Of a DNA stretch of 64,000 bases, positions 40,436-62,912 are shown piece after piece. Source of the stretch: Acidobacteriota bacterium (lineage in GTDB: Bacteria > Acidobacteriota > Terriglobia > Terriglobales > Acidobacteriaceae); contig QIBA01000054.1 in assembly GCA_003225175.1 (NCBI GenBank), forward strand, positions 1 through 64,000, in the 5' to 3' direction. Under the pieces are notes generated by a model that was given only the letters and a program-made list of their open reading frames with translations, searched no databases and had not been told where the DNA came from. Made by a program: the position numbers and the translations under genes. Numbering within the stretch: the first letter of the stretch is position 1; every line of letters starts with the position of its first letter.

Positions 40436-42940
40436 CTACCCAACCTCGACTAAACCATACCGTCGCTGCCAATGCGTCTTGAGATGGAACATCATCGTAT
40501 TGCGATCCATTTTGGAAATGGGAAGGCCTTTTTCTTCGACGACGCGTTGAGCCTCGGCCCGAGCCAGTTCGAGGAGTTTGCGATCCCGAATCAGGTTTGC
40601 GGCACGGAAGCTTGGAGCTCCCGCCTGCTTCGTGCCAAAGAATTCTCCCGGCCCGCGTTGTTCGAGGTCAAGCTCGGCGATCGCGAACCCATCCTGCGTG
40701 CGCAGCATGGCGTCGAGCCGCTGCACTCCTTGTGGGGTGATCTTGCCGCCGGTCATGAGCACGCAGTAGGACTTGTGTGAGCCTCGGCCAATGCGCCCGC
40801 GCAATTGATGAAGCTGGGAGAGGCCAAAACGCTCGGCGTGCTCGATTACCATTACTGTCGCGTTCGGTACATCGACTCCCACTTCTATAACAGTCGTCGC
40901 CACCAAGACGTTAATGTCCCCGCGCTGAAAGCGCGCCATGACCAGCTCTTTCTCGTCCGAAGAGAGCCGACCATGCAACAGCGCAATGCGCAGGTCCGGA
41001 AAGATATTCTTCCGAAGCTCCTCATACATATCAGTGGCGGACTTCAGGCTGACATTCCGTGTTGGGGTTGGCTCTGGCATGCCCTTGAAGGACGTCTGTC
41101 TGAGACGCGCGAGCTCCCGAGCGGAACCCGGTGCTCGCGGATCGATAGCACCGGGACGCCTGGTTGCGAATCGTCTTTGCGCCGAGGCTTGCGTTCTGGC
41201 GTTTCCTCGCCGAGTGACTGTGCCCGAAGTTTCGGCTTCTTGTTCGTTTACGTCACGGGCTAACAGATCACCTTCCTCTCCGGCGCTTTCAATCACTGGA
41301 TAGACGACATAGGCTTGCCGCCCTAGCGCCACTTGCTTGCGCACGAAATCCCAAACTTCAGGGGCACGTTCGTCGGAAATCGAGCGCGTAGTGATCGGAG
41401 TACGTCCCGGTGGAAGTTCGTCGATGATGCTGACGTCAAGATCGCCATAAAGCGTAAGAGCGAGAGTGCGCGGAATCGGGGTCGCAGTCATAACGAGCAC
41501 ATCGGGCTCATAAATATCGGGTGATCGGGTGATCGGGTCATCGGGCGAAGTTACACCGGAAGTAGATCTGCGTTTATCCTTTGAATCTGGCTTCATCTGC
41601 GTGGGAAGCTGCTGTTGACTATCGGCCGGTGAGTTATCACTTGGCTTCCGCATCAAGCGCCAGCGCTGCATTACGCCAAAGCGATGCTGTTCGTCGACCA
41701 CGATCAGTCCCAATTTGGCAAATTCTACTTTTTCTTCAATGAGCGCGTGCGTGCCGATTACGAGCTGGGCGTTGCCCTGAGCGATGTGCCGACGCGTTGC
41801 CCGCTTTCGGTCTTCCTCCAGCGATCCGGTCAACAACACAACGCGATAGCCGTGCTCCTCCAGCAGCTTGCGCGCACCGAGATAGTGCTGTGTAGCAAGG
41901 ATTTCGGTCGGGGCCATGAAGGCAGCCTGATAACCGTTCTCGATCGCAATGACGGCTGCTTCGAGCGCCACCAAAGTCTTTCCTGATCCGACATCTCCTT
42001 GCAGCAGGCGCCGCATCGGAACCGGCGTTTGCATATCATTTGCGATTTCACCCAGCACCTTCTTCTGGGCGCCTGTAGGTCTGAACGGTAGAAACCGTTT
42101 AATGGACTCCCGCACGCGATCGGTTAATTGGAAACTGATTCCGGTGCGGCGGCGCAAATTGCGGCGCTTGAGTTCGAGCCCGACCTCCAGAAAAAACAAT
42201 TCTTCGAAGATGAGGCGGCGATGTGCCGGCGTGGCGCGCGCTTCCAGATTGGCGAAGCTTTCTCCCAGCTCGGGAAAGTGAACTTGCTGAAACGCATCGC
42301 GCCGCGACGTAAGTTGCATCTGTTCGCGTACGCCAGGAGGGATGCCGTCGGGAATGTTGGGAGAGAGTTCCTGCACTACGCGATGAAGCACATTGCGAAA
42401 CCAGCGCGAATTCAGCTTCCCGATCGCTTCATAGACGGGAACGATCCGGCCTATCTCGACCGACTGCTCCAGGCGTTCTTCGATCAGGCTTTCCGGTTCG
42501 TCTTCGTTTTGTCCGAGAACTTCGACCTGAGGCTGCATGATCTGGAATCGGGTTTTAGAGAACTTTCCCCATCCTTCTTCTACCTTGCCGTACAAGGCCA
42601 GCATCTGTCCGGCTTTGAAGCGATCGCGAAGGTAGGAACCGTGAAACCACGTGCACACGATCGTCTTCATTCCTTGACCAACGACGAGTTCAAAAATAGG
42701 GATTCCGCTTTTGGTGCGGTACAGGTGGGAATTACGCACTTCCGCAATGATGGTGGCGAACTCACCAACGCGTAATTCCGAAATTTCGCGAGGATTCGCG
42801 CGGTCCTCGTAGCGGAAAGGCAAATGGTAGAGCAGGTCCTCAACGGTGGAGATCCCCTTTTCGCCAAGAATGGACGCGGCACGGGGACCGATGCCTTTCA
42901 CATATTGGAGCGGGGTGTGGAGTTCAAGCATGAAGGACAA
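40436..42940 (-). CDS. recG: ATP-dependent DNA helicase RecG with two in-frame insertions
   Basis: 834 residues (E. coli 693). Wedge domain (LQYVKGIGPRAASILGEKGI), Walker A GDVGSGKT, DEQH, MTATPIPRTLALT, then the helicase C-lobe (ALLHGRLSSDEKELVMARFQ, VATTVIEVGVDVPNATVMVI, QLRGRIGRG) and the TRG region. RecG reverses stalled replication forks and processes branched DNA. The first insertion (residues about 432-478) separates DEQHRFGVMQRWRLM from the MTATPIPRT motif; its part TSPDDPITRSPDI is encoded by a family C repeat. The second (about 555-630) precedes LKSATDMYEEL and is Arg/Thr/Ala-rich. Motifs on both sides are intact, so the protein is probably active. Confidence 0.96.
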   Translation of the reverse strand: MSFMLELHTPLQYVKGIGPRAASILGEKGISTVEDLLYHLPFRYEDRANPREISELRVGEFATIIAEVRNSHLYRTKSGIPIFELVVGQGMKTIVCTWFHGSYLRDRFKAGQMLALYGKVEEGWGKFSKTRFQIMQPQVEVLGQNEDEPESLIEERLEQSVEIGRIVPVYEAIGKLNSRWFRNVLHRVVQELSPNIPDGIPPGVREQMQLTSRRDAFQQVHFPELGESFANLEARATPAHRRLIFEELFFLEVGLELKRRNLRRRTGISFQLTDRVRESIKRFLPFRPTGAQKKVLGEIANDMQTPVPMRRLLQGDVGSGKTLVALEAAVIAIENGYQAAFMAPTEILATQHYLGARKLLEEHGYRVVLLTGSLEEDRKRATRRHIAQGNAQLVIGTHALIEEKVEFAKLGLIVVDEQHRFGVMQRWRLMRKPSDNSPADSQQQLPTQMKPDSKDKRRSTSGVTSPDDPITRSPDIYEPDVLVMTATPIPRTLALTLYGDLDVSIIDELPPGRTPITTRSISDERAPEVWDFVRKQVALGRQAYVVYPVIESAGEEGDLLARDVNEQEAETSGTVTRRGNARTQASAQRRFATRRPGAIDPRAPGSARELARLRQTSFKGMPEPTPTRNVSLKSATDMYEELRKNIFPDLRIALLHGRLSSDEKELVMARFQRGDINVLVATTVIEVGVDVPNATVMVIEHAERFGLSQLHQLRGRIGRGSHKSYCVLMTGGKITPQGVQRLDAMLRTQDGFAIAELDLEQRGPGEFFGTKQAGAPSFRAANLIRDRKLLELARAEAQRVVEEKGLPISKMDRNTMMFHLKTHWQRRYGLVEVG
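41516..41552. repeat. family C copy inside recG
   Basis: ATCGGGTGATCGGGTGATCG then GGTCATCGGGCGAAGTTA, the same tandem CGGGTGAT-words as the intergenic copies at 17013, 60506 and 61747. In the recG frame (minus strand) it encodes SPDDPITRSPDI. Confidence 0.9.
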
Positions 42941-57281: not shown

Positions 57282-57310
57282 GGTAGAGATGCAGTATGCT
57301 GCGTCTCTCC
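57282..57310. repeat. family F palindrome (copy F5)
   Basis: GGTAGAGATGCAGTATGC followed by TGCGTCTCTCC, 22 bp after tal-pgi. Confidence 0.85.
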
Positions 57311-57331
57311 ATGCAGATTGAATTCAGAGAC

Positions 57332-57507
57332 TGTCATCCTGAGGCCCGGTTTTGGCCGAAGGATCTCCCGGAATATGTCGGACTTACTTGCTGCTTGTGC
57401 GGCTCTTTCACGAGGGCCTGAGTGCATGGCCAAAGTGCCACGAAGGGGCAACTAAGTCCGACGCATCGCGGGAGATCCTTCGCCCAAAAGAGGGGCTCAG
57501 GATGACG
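57332..57507. repeat. family E long inverted repeat (copy E2)
   Basis: Ends TGTCATCCTGAGGCCC and GGGGCTCAGGATGACG are inverted. Inner arms TTTTGGCCGAAGGATCTCCC and GGGAGATCCTTCGCCC pair as well. The centre has GCGGCTCTTTCACGAGGGCC and GGCCAAAGTGCCACG. Length 176 bp, as copy E3. Confidence 0.9.
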
Positions 57508-57544
57508 GTCGAAGAGTGTCGATTTCTAAAAGGAGTTCCACCTT

Positions 57545-58543
57545 ATGCAGATGGGCATGGTAGGTCTAGGAAGAATGGGCGGCAACATGGTGCGCCGCCT
57601 TATACGCGGAGGCCATCAGATCGTTGTTTCTGACCTGAGCGCCGAAACTGTCAACGCGATCGCTAAGGAAGGCGCAGTCCCCAGCAGCGGGCTGGACGAT
57701 CTAGTGAAGAAACTCAACAAGCCGCGTGCTGTATGGGTGATGGTTCCCGCCGGAGATCCCACCGAGAAGACGGTCTTCGCACTCACGGAAAGGCTCGAAT
57801 CTGGCGACACCATCATCGACGGCGGCAACTCCATGTGGAAGGACGACATCCGCCGCGCGAAGATCCTCAGGGCAAAAGGCATTCACTACGTCGACGTCGG
57901 CACCAGCGGTGGCATCTGGGGCATCGATCGCGGCTATTGCATGATGATTGGCGGTCCCGATGAGGCAGTGAAGCGTCTCGATCCGCTCTTCAAGACACTC
58001 GCGCCGGGAATCGGTGACATCCCACGCACTCCCGGATGGGAGAAGAAGCCGGGCAACACCGCCGAGCAGGGATACATTCACGCCGGTCCTTCGGGAGCGG
58101 GACATTACGTGAAGATGGTGCACAACGGCATCGAGTACGGCCTGATGCAAGCGTATGCCGAAGGCTTCGATATTTTCCGCAACGCCAACTCCAAAGAAAT
58201 TTCCGAAGATCAGCGCTACAACCTAAACCTTCCGGAGATCGCCGAAGTGTGGCGTCGGGGATCGGTAGTGGCCTCGTGGCTGCTCGACTTGACGGCGATG
58301 GCCCTTATAGAAGATCCCGAACTTGCCCAATACAGCGGATTCGTCCAGGACTCCGGCGAAGGACGCTGGACAATCGAAGCCGCGGTCGCCACAGCGGTTC
58401 CGGCTGACGTGCTGACGGCCGCGCTGTACACCAGATTCCGCTCGCGCCAGGAACACACATTTGCCGAGAAGACGTTGTCAGCCATGCGGCAAAAGTTTGG
58501 CGGACATGTTGAGCCGAAGAAGGCGGCGGGAAAGATTGCTTGA
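57545..58543 (+). CDS. gnd: 6-phosphogluconate dehydrogenase, short (GndA-type) form
   Basis: 332 residues. [20 protein letters not shown] dinucleotide fold, [66 protein letters not shown]. Oxidatively decarboxylates 6-phosphogluconate to ribulose-5-phosphate. About 140 residues shorter than E. coli Gnd (468), as in the NAD-type or compact group; cofactor preference is not determined. AGGAG nine bases upstream. Confidence 0.95.
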
Positions 58544-58549
58544 AAACGG

Positions 58550-58718
58550 CTTTCGGCCATCAGCTGTCGGCTTTCGGCCACGAAGCAGTTTGGTATCAAC
58601 TCATTTGTGGCACAGGCGCCCTCGCCTGTGTTCGTTTTGGGCAGAGCCACAGCCGACGGAGGCTGTGCGACAGTGCCCGATAAATTTTCGTAGAGACCCA
58701 GCATGCTGCGCTTCTACC
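58550..58718. repeat. cluster of families B, G and F after gnd
   Basis: B3 (58550-58582: GGCTTTCGGCCATCAGCTGT then CGGCTTTCGGCC); a family G pair in inverse orientation (58604-58630 and 58639-58675, GGCACAGGCGCCCTCGCC against AGCCACAGCCGACGGAGGCT); F6 (58690-58718, GTAGAGACCCAGCATGC then TGCGCTTCTACC). Confidence 0.8.
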
Positions 58719-58750
58719 ATGCAGTAAGCCACTGTCGTGCAGTAAAGAAC

Positions 58751-58926
58751 TGTCATCCTGAGGCCTCTTTTGGCCGAAGGATCTCCCGGAATGTGTCAAA
58801 CGTAATTGCTGCCGCGTGGCATTTTGGCCAAACGTCTGGGGTTCTCGTGAAAGAGCCACACTGGCTGCAAGTACGTCCGAAATATTTCGGGAGATCCTTC
58901 GGCCAAGAGAGGGCCTCAGGATGACA
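58751..58926. repeat. family E long inverted repeat (copy E3)
   Basis: TGTCATCCTGAGGCCTC and GAGGGCCTCAGGATGACA are inverted ends. Inner arms TTTTGGCCGAAGGATCTCCC and GGGAGATCCTTCGGCCAA are exact over most of their length. 176 bp, 50 bp before zwf. With the B-G-F cluster it fills the 432-bp gnd-zwf space; no gene is seen in it. Confidence 0.92.
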
Positions 58927-58975
58927 GTCGATAGATGACAGTCGATAAAAAGTAAGCTGCAGAAAAAGGACTCAT

Positions 58976-60505
58976 ATGGCGACCGCAACGTCCGTACAGA
59001 CAAACATTCCACACACCAAGACCACCGGTCCCTGCGTAATGGTCATCTTCGGTGCGACCGGCGACCTTACCAAGCGCAAGCTGCTGCCATCGATCTACAA
59101 CCTGTTGAGCACCGGACTGCTGTCGCGCGAGTTCGCCATCGTCGGCATGTCCAAGGATGGCTGGACTACCGATCAGTTTCGCAAGCATGTCAGCGATTCG
59201 CTCAAGCAGTTCGCCGAGGGCGCCGATCCGGAACTGGTGGATTGGCTTGAACGTCATTCTTATTATGTGCAGGGCGAATTCGGCGACAGCGAAGCCTATA
59301 AGCGCTTGCGCGTGCAGTTGAAGGAAGTCGATGAGGTCCACGGGACGCACGGCAATTACTTCTTTTACTTCGCCATCGCGCCGCAGTTCTTTGCCACCTC
59401 GGTGCAGAAGCTGGGCGAGTCAAATCTTTCGGAGGAAGAGAACGGTTCCTGGCGCCGGGTCATCATCGAGAAGCCATTCGGGCATGATCTGGAGTCAGCC
59501 AGGGAGCTGAATAAGCAGATCAAGGAAGTGCTCTACGAGAGCCAGATCTTCCGCATCGATCATTATCTGGGCAAAGAGACGGTGCAGAACATCTTAGTAT
59601 TCCGTTTTGGGAATGGACTTTTCGAGCCGATCTGGAGCCGCAACTACATCGATCATGTGCAGATCACTGTGGCCGAGACCGTGGGAGTGGAAGGCCGTGG
59701 AGGCTACTACGACACCTCGGGCACGCTGCGCGACATGGTGCCCAACCACATCATGCAGCTCATCAGCCTGACCACGATGGAGCCTCCGATCTCGTTCCAG
59801 GCAGATGACGTGCGTGATGAGCAGTCGAAGGTGCTGCACGCCATTCGTCCGATGAGCGGAGAAGAGGTGATTCACAACGCCGTGCGCGGTCAATACGGCA
59901 CTGGAACGACGCAGAAAGGCGAACGCATGCCTGGCTACCGTCAGGAGCCGAGCGTGAATCCCAGTTCCCGAACTGAAACCTTCATCGCACTGAAGCTCTC
60001 GATCGACAACTGGCGTTGGGCAGGCGTTCCGATCTACTTGCGCACAGGCAAACGCATGGCGCGGCGACATACGGAAATCGCCATTGAGTTCAAGCGCGCG
60101 CCGTTCGTGCTCTTCCGCGACACCGACATCGAGCACCTGCCGAGCAATCAATTAGTCATCAACGTCCAGCCGGAAGAAGGTATTGCGCTTAAGTTCGGCG
60201 CCAAGGTTCCGGGTCCGCTGGTGAAGGTCGGGCCAGTGCACATGAGCTTCAACTACCAGGATTATTTTGGCGGCACCGCGCAAACTGGTTACGAAGTATT
60301 GCTCTACGACTGCATGATCGGCGATGCCACTCTCTTTCAGCGCGCGGATATGGTCGAGGCCGGTTGGTCAGCAGTTGATCCAGTGCTCGACGTGTGGAAG
60401 GCGCTGCCTCCAAGGGAATTCCCGAACTACCAGGCAGGCACGTGGGGGCCGAGGGAGGCTGAGGAGTTGATGGCTCGGGATGGCAGACACTGGAGAAACC
60501 TATAG
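58976..60505 (+). CDS. zwf: glucose-6-phosphate 1-dehydrogenase
   Basis: 509 residues. [20 protein letters not shown] (NADP fold), the catalytic [53 protein letters not shown] and [14 protein letters not shown]. Entry enzyme of the oxidative pentose-phosphate pathway. AAAGGA five bases before the ATG. A composite palindrome begins one base after the stop. Confidence 0.97.
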
Positions 60506-60688
60506 GAATCGGGCCATCGGGTCATCGGGTGAAGTGAAACCCAAAAGGCTTTCGGCTATCGGCGTTCGGCTTTCTGCCAGAAAGCTGTCCTGTGAGTTAC
60601 ATAGCAACACATAGGCCGAAAGCCGACAGCCGAGTGCCGATAGCCTTCTTACTTCACCCGATGACCCGATCACCCGATGGCCCGATTC
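60506..60688. repeat. nested composite repeat C-B-B'-C'
   Basis: Outer arms: CGGGCCATCGGGTCATCGGG then TGAAGTGAAA (about 60510-60539) and ACTTCACCCGATGACCCGAT then CACCCGATGGCCCG (60651-60684). Inner arms are family B: AAAGGCTTTCGGCTATCGGC (60545 on) and GCCGAGTGCCGATAGCC (about 60629-60645). The whole 183-bp element is one interrupted palindrome between zwf and glk. Confidence 0.9.
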
Positions 60689-60716
60689 CTCGAGCAACAA
60701 TGGGAGAAAGACAATC

Positions 60717-61733
60717 TTGACCATGATCCTGGCCGGCGACATCGGCGGTACGAGCGCAAGGCTTGCATATTTTGAAGGGCAGAACGGACGTTTGCGCCCC
60801 ATCGTGGAAGAGGTCAAGCACAGCCACGATTACAGCAGTCTCTATGCCGCAGTGCTTGAATTCAGAGACAAGTATCGATACCAAATCGGGACTGCCTGCT
60901 TTGGTGTCGCCGGACCGGTGAATGAAGGCCGCGTCGAAGCTCCAAACCTGCCGTGGATCATCGACGAGAAGGAACTTGAGAAGGAACTCCGCCTGAACAA
61001 GGTTTACCTGATCAACGATCTCTTAGCTAACGCGCATGGACTCTCCGAGCTGTGCGCAGAAGATTTCGAGGTGATCGCTCCGGGAGTACCGGAAGCGAAG
61101 GGAAATCGTGCTGTCATTTCCGCCGGCACTGGATTGGGCGAAGCCGGACTATATTGGGACGGCGATGTGCATCATCCGTTTGCGGCCGAGGGTGGACACG
61201 CCGACTTTGCTCCAGCGAACGAGCTTCAGGCCGAACTTTGGCATTACCTGCACCAGAAGTTCGGCGGACACGTGAGTTGGGAGCGCGTCCTCTCTGGTCC
61301 CGGGCAGTTCAATATCTACGAGTTCCTGCGCGATACCGGAAAAGGGAAGGAAGAGGCCTGGCTCGCCGACGAAATCAAGGCGGGCGATGCTTCGGCAGTG
61401 ATTTCAAAGCACGGTCTTTCGGGAAAGAGCCCGTTGTGCGTGCAGGCGGTAAATCTTTTTGTTGAGATCTACGGAGCAGCTGCGGGAAATCTGGCGCTCA
61501 AGTATCTGGCAACAGGTGGCGTCTACATCGGCGGCGGCATCGCGCCGAAGATTCTGCTCAAAATGAAGGAGCCGCGCTTCTTCCAGGCATTTTGCGATAA
61601 GGGACGCCTGCGTCCGCTGCTCGAGAACATTCCCGTGCGCGTGGTGCTGAATGACAAGACCGCGCTGCTCGGCGCGGGACATGTGGCGATGATGCATGCG
61701 GGGAGCGAGGTTGGGCAGGTGGCGATTGGGTGA
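60717..61733 (+). CDS. glk: glucokinase
   Basis: 338 residues, ROK-unrelated Glk family (Pfam Glucokinase). ILAGDIGGTSARLAYFE (phosphate 1), GVAGPVNEGRVEAPNLPW, LINDLLANAHGLSEL, ISAGTGLGEAGLYW, the AEGGHADFAP and GGVYIGGGIAPKI segments. Phosphorylates glucose to glucose-6-phosphate, the zwf substrate. GGGAG lies ten bases before a TTG (60717); an ATG two codons later (60723) is the alternative start. Confidence 0.95.
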   Translation: MTMILAGDIGGTSARLAYFEGQNGRLRPIVEEVKHSHDYSSLYAAVLEFRDKYRYQIGTACFGVAGPVNEGRVEAPNLPWIIDEKELEKELRLNKVYLINDLLANAHGLSELCAEDFEVIAPGVPEAKGNRAVISAGTGLGEAGLYWDGDVHHPFAAEGGHADFAPANELQAELWHYLHQKFGGHVSWERVLSGPGQFNIYEFLRDTGKGKEEAWLADEIKAGDASAVISKHGLSGKSPLCVQAVNLFVEIYGAAAGNLALKYLATGGVYIGGGIAPKILLKMKEPRFFQAFCDKGRLRPLLENIPVRVVLNDKTALLGAGHVAMMHAGSEVGQVAIG

Positions 61734-61746
61734 AGGGAAGAATTGA

Positions 61747-61791
61747 GCCATCGGGTTATCGGCTGATCGGGTCATCGGGCAAAGTAAAAGC
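61747..61791. repeat. family C repeat (single arm)
   Basis: CCATCGGGTTATCGGCTGAT then CGGGTCATCGGGCAAAGTAA: four tandem ATCGG-words, without an inverted partner. 48 bp before pgl. Confidence 0.75.
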
Positions 61792-61839
61792 CAATTATTC
61801 TATGGTTGGGGTTTACTTTCTCCGCAAAGGCAGCAACTG

Positions 61840-62601
61840 ATGTCCAAGCCCAGCATCCATGTACTCGAGGATCTTCAACAAGTCGCAGCGGCCGCTACCG
61901 ACGAATTTGTTGCGCGCGCGAAGCGCGCGATTTCGCATCATGGGCGATTCACCGTCGCACTCTCGGGTGGATCGACGCCCAAAACGATGCACTCCATCCT
62001 GGCCGAGCGCTCGGCGAAGAATCCCAAGCTGGTGGACTGGTCGCGAGTGCAAATTTTGTTTGGCGATGAACGCCATGTGCCTCCCGATCATGCGGACAGC
62101 AATTACCGGATGGCTAAGGAGACTCTGCTGTCGAAGGTCCCAATTCCCGCGGCTAACATTCACCGCATTCACACCGAGAATCCCGATGCCGCCAAAGCAG
62201 CCGGAGAATACGATCGCGAACTGGTGAAGGTCTTTCAACTCAAGGGTGACGATCAGCTGCCGCGCTTCGATCTGATCTTTCTTGGGATGGGACCTGACGG
62301 TCACACCGCTTCGCTCTTTCCTGGTACAACGGCTGTTCATGAACTCAAGAAGCGCGTAGTCGCGAACTGGGTGCCGAAGTTCAATACGTGGCGGGTTACC
62401 TTCACGCGTCCTGTGATCAATCAGGCAGAATGCGTGTTGCTGATGGTCTGCGGGAAAGATAAAGCGCAGCCTTTCAGCGAGGTGATCGGTCAGGGTAGCC
62501 CGGATGTTTATCCAGTGAAGTATGTGCAGCCGACGCACGGAGAACTGATTTGGCTGGTGGATAGGGCGGCAGCAGCGACGCTCGCGCCAGCGACTAAGTG
62601 A
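61840..62601 (+). CDS. pgl: 6-phosphogluconolactonase
   Basis: 253 residues, NagB-like fold. FTVALSGGSTPKTMHSIL, DWSRVQILFGDERHVPPDHADSN in two overlapping stretches, FDLIFLGMGPDGHTASLFPG (catalytic His) and RVTFTRPVINQAECVLLMV. Hydrolyses 6-phosphogluconolactone between Zwf and Gnd. Same strand as glk and zwf. Confidence 0.96.
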   Translation: MSKPSIHVLEDLQQVAAAATDEFVARAKRAISHHGRFTVALSGGSTPKTMHSILAERSAKNPKLVDWSRVQILFGDERHVPPDHADSNYRMAKETLLSKVPIPAANIHRIHTENPDAAKAAGEYDRELVKVFQLKGDDQLPRFDLIFLGMGPDGHTASLFPGTTAVHELKKRVVANWVPKFNTWRVTFTRPVINQAECVLLMVCGKDKAQPFSEVIGQGSPDVYPVKYVQPTHGELIWLVDRAAAATLAPATK

Positions 62602-62615
62602 CTGCACTGTTGCGT

Positions 62616-62912
62616 TGTCATCCTGAGGCCCGATGTTGGCCGAAGGATCTCCCGGAATGCGTCGAACTTAGTCGCCCTCGCATGGCACTTTGGCCAAAAA
62701 TGCCCGAGTTCTTGGTGAAAGAGCCGCACTGGCTGCAATCATGTCGGAAACATCGCGGGAGATCCTTCGGCCAACATCTGGCCTCAGGATGACAATTCAT
62801 TAGTTCCCAAGTTCGCCGAGCAACATCGAAACATTTATCCTGCAACAAAGTGAACAGTCTGCAATCCGATAGAGATACTGCTGTAGCTAATTGCTAATCG
62901 CTAATTGCTGCT
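62616..62912. repeat. family E (copy E4) and family D after pgl
   Basis: E4 (62616-62794): ends TGTCATCCTGAGGCCCG and TGGCCTCAGGATGACA, inner arms TGTTGGCCGAAGGATCTCCC and GGGAGATCCTTCGGCCAACA. D4 (62886-62912): GCTAATTGCTAATCGC then TAATTGCTGC. The 327-bp space holds no gene. Confidence 0.88.

Follow-up and report, generated by a model that had tools for sequence, protein, structure and literature searches.

RecG is enlarged by two insertions between intact helicase motifs

The window analyzed here, a stretch of 64,000 nucleotides from the genome of a soil Acidobacteriota bacterium (G000), carries recG on the minus strand at 40436..42931. The open reading frame encodes 831 amino acids from an ATG at 42931, or 834 amino acids from an alternative TTG start at 42940. 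The protein was called as RecG by NCBIfam RecG equivalogs and by the Pfam domains RecG_wedge, DEAD, Helicase_C, and RecG_dom3_C; the wedge domain, the helicase domains, and the C-terminal domain 3 are all present, and the motifs GDVGSGKT, DEQH, TATP, TTVIEVGVDVPNA, and QLRGRIGRG are intact. The best PDB match of the AlphaFold2 model is RecG of Thermotoga maritima (1gm5; E 7.7e-47), with a query TM score of 0.54 for a model that includes long disordered parts. Domains, motifs, and fold are thus the same as in the T. maritima and Escherichia coli (9wm0) proteins; both of these, however, lack two insertions found here. With 831 residues compared to 693 in the E. coli chain 9wm0, G000 RecG is 138 residues longer, in agreement with the original prediction of about 140.

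Insertion 1 (41516..41644, minus strand) comprises residues 430-472, which take the place of about four residues in 1gm5 and 9wm0. It is preceded directly by helicase motif II (DEQH, 41684..41695, minus), which is invariant in 29 RecG sequences, and followed by motif III (TATP, 41477..41488, minus), which is invariant in relatives. Insertion 2 (41057..41284, minus strand) comprises residues 550-625/629 instead of the 2-6 residues in these solved RecG structures, and is rich in Arg, Thr, and Ala. Both insertions had been suggested to lie between helicase motifs that remain intact, and the flanking motifs bear this out. With dN/dS ratios of 0.03-0.06 for the core and ~0.3-0.8 for the inserts, the RecG core is under strong purifying selection while the inserts evolve under looser selection. 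Selection on the core also lends indirect support to a product that would be translated and active.

Insertion 1 contains sequence from two interspersed repeats

Insertion 1 is composite, with a remnant of one repeat (repeat B) first and an array of a second (family C) after it. The family C array (41516..41552, minus) consists of ACTTCG followed by (CCCGATNN)n, is 36-37 bp long, and in recG has the composition ACTTCG-CCCGATGA-CCCGATCA-CCCGATCA-CCCGAT; it is translated as TSPDDPITRSPD, in line with the family C origin proposed originally for part of insertion 1. In a perfect (CCCGATCA)n array all three forward frames are open while every reverse frame contains TGA, which explains the orientation of the array in recG and implies that just one orientation can be kept in genes.

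The repeat B remnant (41566..41617, minus; consensus approximately ACGCAGATGAACGCGGATTTAGGGATTCACGCAGAT) occupies the first half of insertion 1 and was missed by the original prediction. It was picked out (41617-41566, E 1.6e-4) by a consensus of intergenic repeat B copies from G001 and G004. The version of repeat B in G004 RecG matched 22 times in its own genome and 29 times in that of G001 (RecG included), while a search of the G000 genome with its own repeat B sequence gave no further copy because the remnant is so decayed. Insertion 1 thus has two properties of a coding repeat insertion: its DNA is multicopy elsewhere, and it is absent from the orthologue in the close outgroup G005.

Family C is specific to the genus

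A family C pattern gave 77 matches (~50-66 sites) in G000 compared to 0 for a reversed control pattern. Among 61 genomes, it gave 48-128 matches in each of six genomes of the same genus and at most seven in each of the 55 others; family C is, therefore, specific to this genus. Among ~66 G000 arrays sampled with their flanks, only that in RecG is clearly intragenic, the remaining overlaps between arrays and open reading frames being short, low-scoring, or near the starts of the frames. Within the window, the pattern search also identified an intergenic inverted pair of arrays at 60500..60691 and a single intergenic array at 61750..61785 (minus). Many intergenic copies are inverted pairs ~90-170 bp apart, a feature that we compared with MITEs. 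We also observed that intergenic family C copies (60500-60691 and others) are often composite, with outward-facing CCCGAT arrays flanking tandem stretches of GCCGANN type joined by TTTTACTTCA. The surrounding region (57283-62804) is a dense cluster of interspersed repeat families, comprising a CATCCTGAGG/CTTCGG type, a GTAGAGACGCAGCATGCTGCGTCTCTAC type, family C, and GGCCTTCGGCTGTCGGCGTTCGGCC, several of which form long inverted pairs.

A single family C unit folds poorly (z -0.63) and does not form the stable hairpin of a REP, whereas elements of other lineages (see below) fold strongly (L200, z -6.3; L172, z -5.3). Y1_Tnp has 10 matches in G000, and at the subset of these loci that was examined no family C array lies within ~1.5 kb of the Y1_Tnp gene. 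Judged by the loci examined, family C is probably not a RAYT-linked REP.

Insertion 2 of G000 has no second genomic copy

The original prediction drew attention to an inverted repeat in the DNA of insertion 2. The 9-bp pair CCCGGTGCT/AGCACCGGG exists (41127-41135 and 41147-41155, minus) and forms a hairpin (z -3.5); the window contains 19 such pairs compared to 4-11 in simulations, a number not far from chance, and we did not retain this pair as a special signal. Insertion 2 of G000 is not multicopy: a search of the G000 genome gave no second copy and, besides insertion 2 itself, nothing better than E 0.15, leaving a derivation from a repeat unsupported in this genome. By analogy with the repeats in insertion 2 of G006 and L172 described below, it is plausible that it, too, derives from an old repeat.

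The insertions are predicted to be disordered

In the AlphaFold2 model (pLDDT 77.6), pLDDT falls below 50 at residues 432-469 and 548-626. Both insertions are thus predicted to be disordered; structure prediction had been proposed as a check on whether they form surface loops. Between G000 and G004, 57% of the aligned insertion 2 residues differ. Between G000 and G001 (L002), silent sites of both insertions (41057-41284 and 41516-41644) diverge ~3-fold less than the rest of recG: 11 of 65 fourfold sites differ in the inserts compared to 175 of 355 in the core (p 6.5e-7). A few short core stretches are equally low in silent divergence. Gene conversion or a constraint on the nucleic acid are possible causes of the slow silent change in the inserts.

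Insertion 1 was most simply gained on one branch within the genus

In a tree of the RecG core, G005 is the outgroup of G000-G004 (support 100/100). G005 RecG has a repeat-free stretch of 29 residues where the carriers have 68-89, although the G005 genome has 124 family C pattern matches, none of them in recG. Besides G000, four genomes encode related in-frame segments at this position, in RecG proteins with 78-91% identity to G000 RecG, and all five carriers (G000-G004) have repeat-derived DNA at insertion 1. Relatives that keep the protein segment while lacking the repeats would have spoken against an origin from repeats; we looked for them and found that G005 lacks both and that five of five carriers have repeat-derived DNA. 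Because the outgroup lacks the segment, the simplest reading is a gain on a single branch, in the common ancestor of G000-G004 once G005 had diverged. The G003 insert is 90% identical over 87 bp to a long form of family C that lies between genes, and G004 recG has a decayed version of this long form in which the central part is kept. Together, these matches suggest that an element of ~100 bp was probably inserted and later trimmed. We also note that both insertions of G003 recG (L004) contain a similar GCCGCCCCCGGCCGG stretch, possibly another repeat used twice.

Unrelated repeats have entered the same two turns across Terriglobales

We read ~105 RecG genes from Terriglobales and related bacteria at both insertion points. 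As this alignment with other acidobacterial RecG proteins, which had been proposed as a check, shows, both points vary widely in length, with inserts of 19-83 amino acids at insertion 1 and 18-97 at insertion 2. In BLAST searches with RecG masked, 25 of 91 insert segments matched non-RecG DNA compared to one of 91 control segments of the same length from RecG. Searches of whole genomes confirmed five further repeats in the RecG turns as multicopy: in insertion 1, a strongly folding 56-bp element (L200/L201/L216) and a 45-bp element (L220/L217); in insertion 2, a 50-bp element (G006) and a 35-bp element (L183/L176/L188); and a 40-bp hairpin (L172/L179), of which insertion 2 of L172 holds two copies. 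L176 is from Edaphobacter lichenicola, a cultured relative. Counting family C and repeat B as well, the total is seven repeat families in two turns of RecG. Intergenic-type repeats have thus landed in RecG time and again, in several genera; the original prediction had missed this invasion of RecG loops in other genera.

Replication and repair genes look over-represented among other hosts

Repeat copies in relatives were sampled without regard to genes. Copies in the interior of genes were found in G006 (RecN, DnaX, an ImuA/RecA-like protein, and a VioC-like monooxygenase), G065 (RecG again, PriA, and a Dpp5-type peptidase), and G067 (Era and a relative of hopanoid-associated phosphorylase); the G061 and repeat B samples had no interior copy in a gene of a recognized family. 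Apart from RecG and the monooxygenase, these hosts are, in the order given, loci L274, L286, L353, L391, L384, L370, and L374, with the repeat near locus position 2000. Open reading frames over repeats in L272, L262, L370 (plus strand), L366, L368, and L375 matched no family and were left out as unproven, and L371 (a partial urocanase) was excluded as a host with the repeat copy near its start. Four of the eight non-RecG hosts are replication or repair genes. Assuming that such genes make up 5% of all genes, the binomial chance of at least four of eight is ~4e-4, for a small sample and outside any planned test; on this basis, replication and repair genes look over-represented.

Discussion

The sequence match, the copy number, the polarity of the gain, the recurrence of repeats in RecG, and the purifying selection on the core follow directly from the data. 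The interpretation that we favor, and hold with considerable confidence, is that repeats entered two tolerant RecG turns in frame, giving near-neutral disordered loops in an enzyme that stays functional, and that the same turns were reused across Terriglobales. Specifically, two short turns, one between motifs II and III and the other just past the YVVYPVIE strand, would tolerate additional residues. Once G005 had branched off, two or more kinds of interspersed repeats (among them B and C) would have entered the first turn in frame in the common ancestor of G000-G004, and the element would then have shrunk and diverged, with the long form kept in G003, decayed in G004, and reduced to the array alone in G000 and G001. 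The insertions would form disordered surface loops on a RecG that stays functional, and other repeat families would have been taken up independently by the same two turns across Terriglobales. Selection would act as a sieve: repeats may land widely but would persist in genes only where extra disordered residues are harmless, and RecG would offer two such turns. We infer that such sieving has confined insertions to these turns and that the loops are nearly neutral; most likely, the insertions are tolerated passenger sequence. Three observations count against this interpretation. Plain neutral drift does not predict the low silent divergence in the inserts, insertion 2 of G000 matches no multicopy repeat, and no mobilizing enzyme was linked to family C at the Y1_Tnp loci examined.

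An unlikely alternative is that selection maintains the disordered loops because they tune RecG, e.g., in partner binding or fork regression. The presence of both loops in five of five carriers, the amino acid change in the G000/G001 inserts far under the core silent rate, and the conserved silent sites of the inserts would fit such a role; nevertheless, insert length and sequence vary freely between species, insertion 2 differs substantially between G000 and G004, and G005 and much of the family manage without long versions. It is less probable still that the array arose locally, through slippage at the native CCC GAT codons in EPDVLVM, without any inserted element. A CCCGAT hexamer does lie 9 bp past the array and is present in the uninserted recG of G005 as well, but the recG copy has the ACTTC lead-in of intergenic copies, and the occurrence of the element's central part in G003 and G004, including the 87-bp match, weakens this explanation; the hexamer could instead have aided insertion via microhomology. 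An origin of the repeat within recG, followed by spread outward to intergenic sites, would agree with RecG being its sole clear coding location among the sampled sites in G000, yet we regard this as hardly credible: it is contradicted by the 124 pattern matches in G005, none in RecG, unless G005 RecG lost its copy. The genomes are mostly draft assemblies, and an assembly or annotation artefact might be suspected, but four independent genomes with related in-frame segments at this position make its probability negligible. Finally, moss organelle RECG keeps recombination between short dispersed repeats in check (PMC4358946), and one can imagine a feedback in which repeat-built loops weaken or retune RecG and lineages with an enlarged RecG let repeats spread. 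We regard this as a long shot; if true, the apparent over-representation of repair genes among repeat hosts would be its general form.

Returning to repeats tolerated in two turns, these insertions belong to one type of event with the RPE insertions of Rickettsia and with intragenic REPs (PMC2229807, PMC3733652). As in RecG, RPEs are described in PMC2229807 as short interspersed repeats in frame in genes for conserved proteins, and one tested product, Gmk, was active with altered substrate affinity (Ogata et al., reviewed there). The sequences and the phylum differ, and family C consists of direct 8-bp repeats in an array, a single unit of which folds poorly. GTAG/CGTC REPs (PMC3733652) resemble family C in being intragenic and sometimes the sole coding sequence hit per species; they occur at about the same recB site in two Xanthomonas species, and many lie in DNA synthesis and repair genes. 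Unlike these, family C has neither a GTAG nor a CGTC foot, and the main text of PMC3733652 mentions neither RecG nor RecN. In Wolbachia, palindromic WPE-like insertions (PMC4224334) are likewise in frame in recombination and replication-restart genes and apparently not inactivating; the genes listed with them include addA, addB, and priA, i.e., the same bias, but not recG.

Among open-licence papers, we found nothing direct on intergenic repeats in coding genes of Acidobacteriota and no earlier description of RecG as a host, of such insertions in Acidobacteriota, or of unrelated repeats reusing the same two turns. RecG thus provides a clean, datable example of intergenic repeats turned into protein in a free-living phylum, with two turns of one protein entered repeatedly by unrelated repeats. 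The many natural pairs of RecG with and without loops make it testable whether the loops reflect tolerance or more. The repeats in replication and repair genes described here are an Acidobacteriota echo of the unexplained finding in Rickettsia, Wolbachia, Xanthomonas, and Opitutus.
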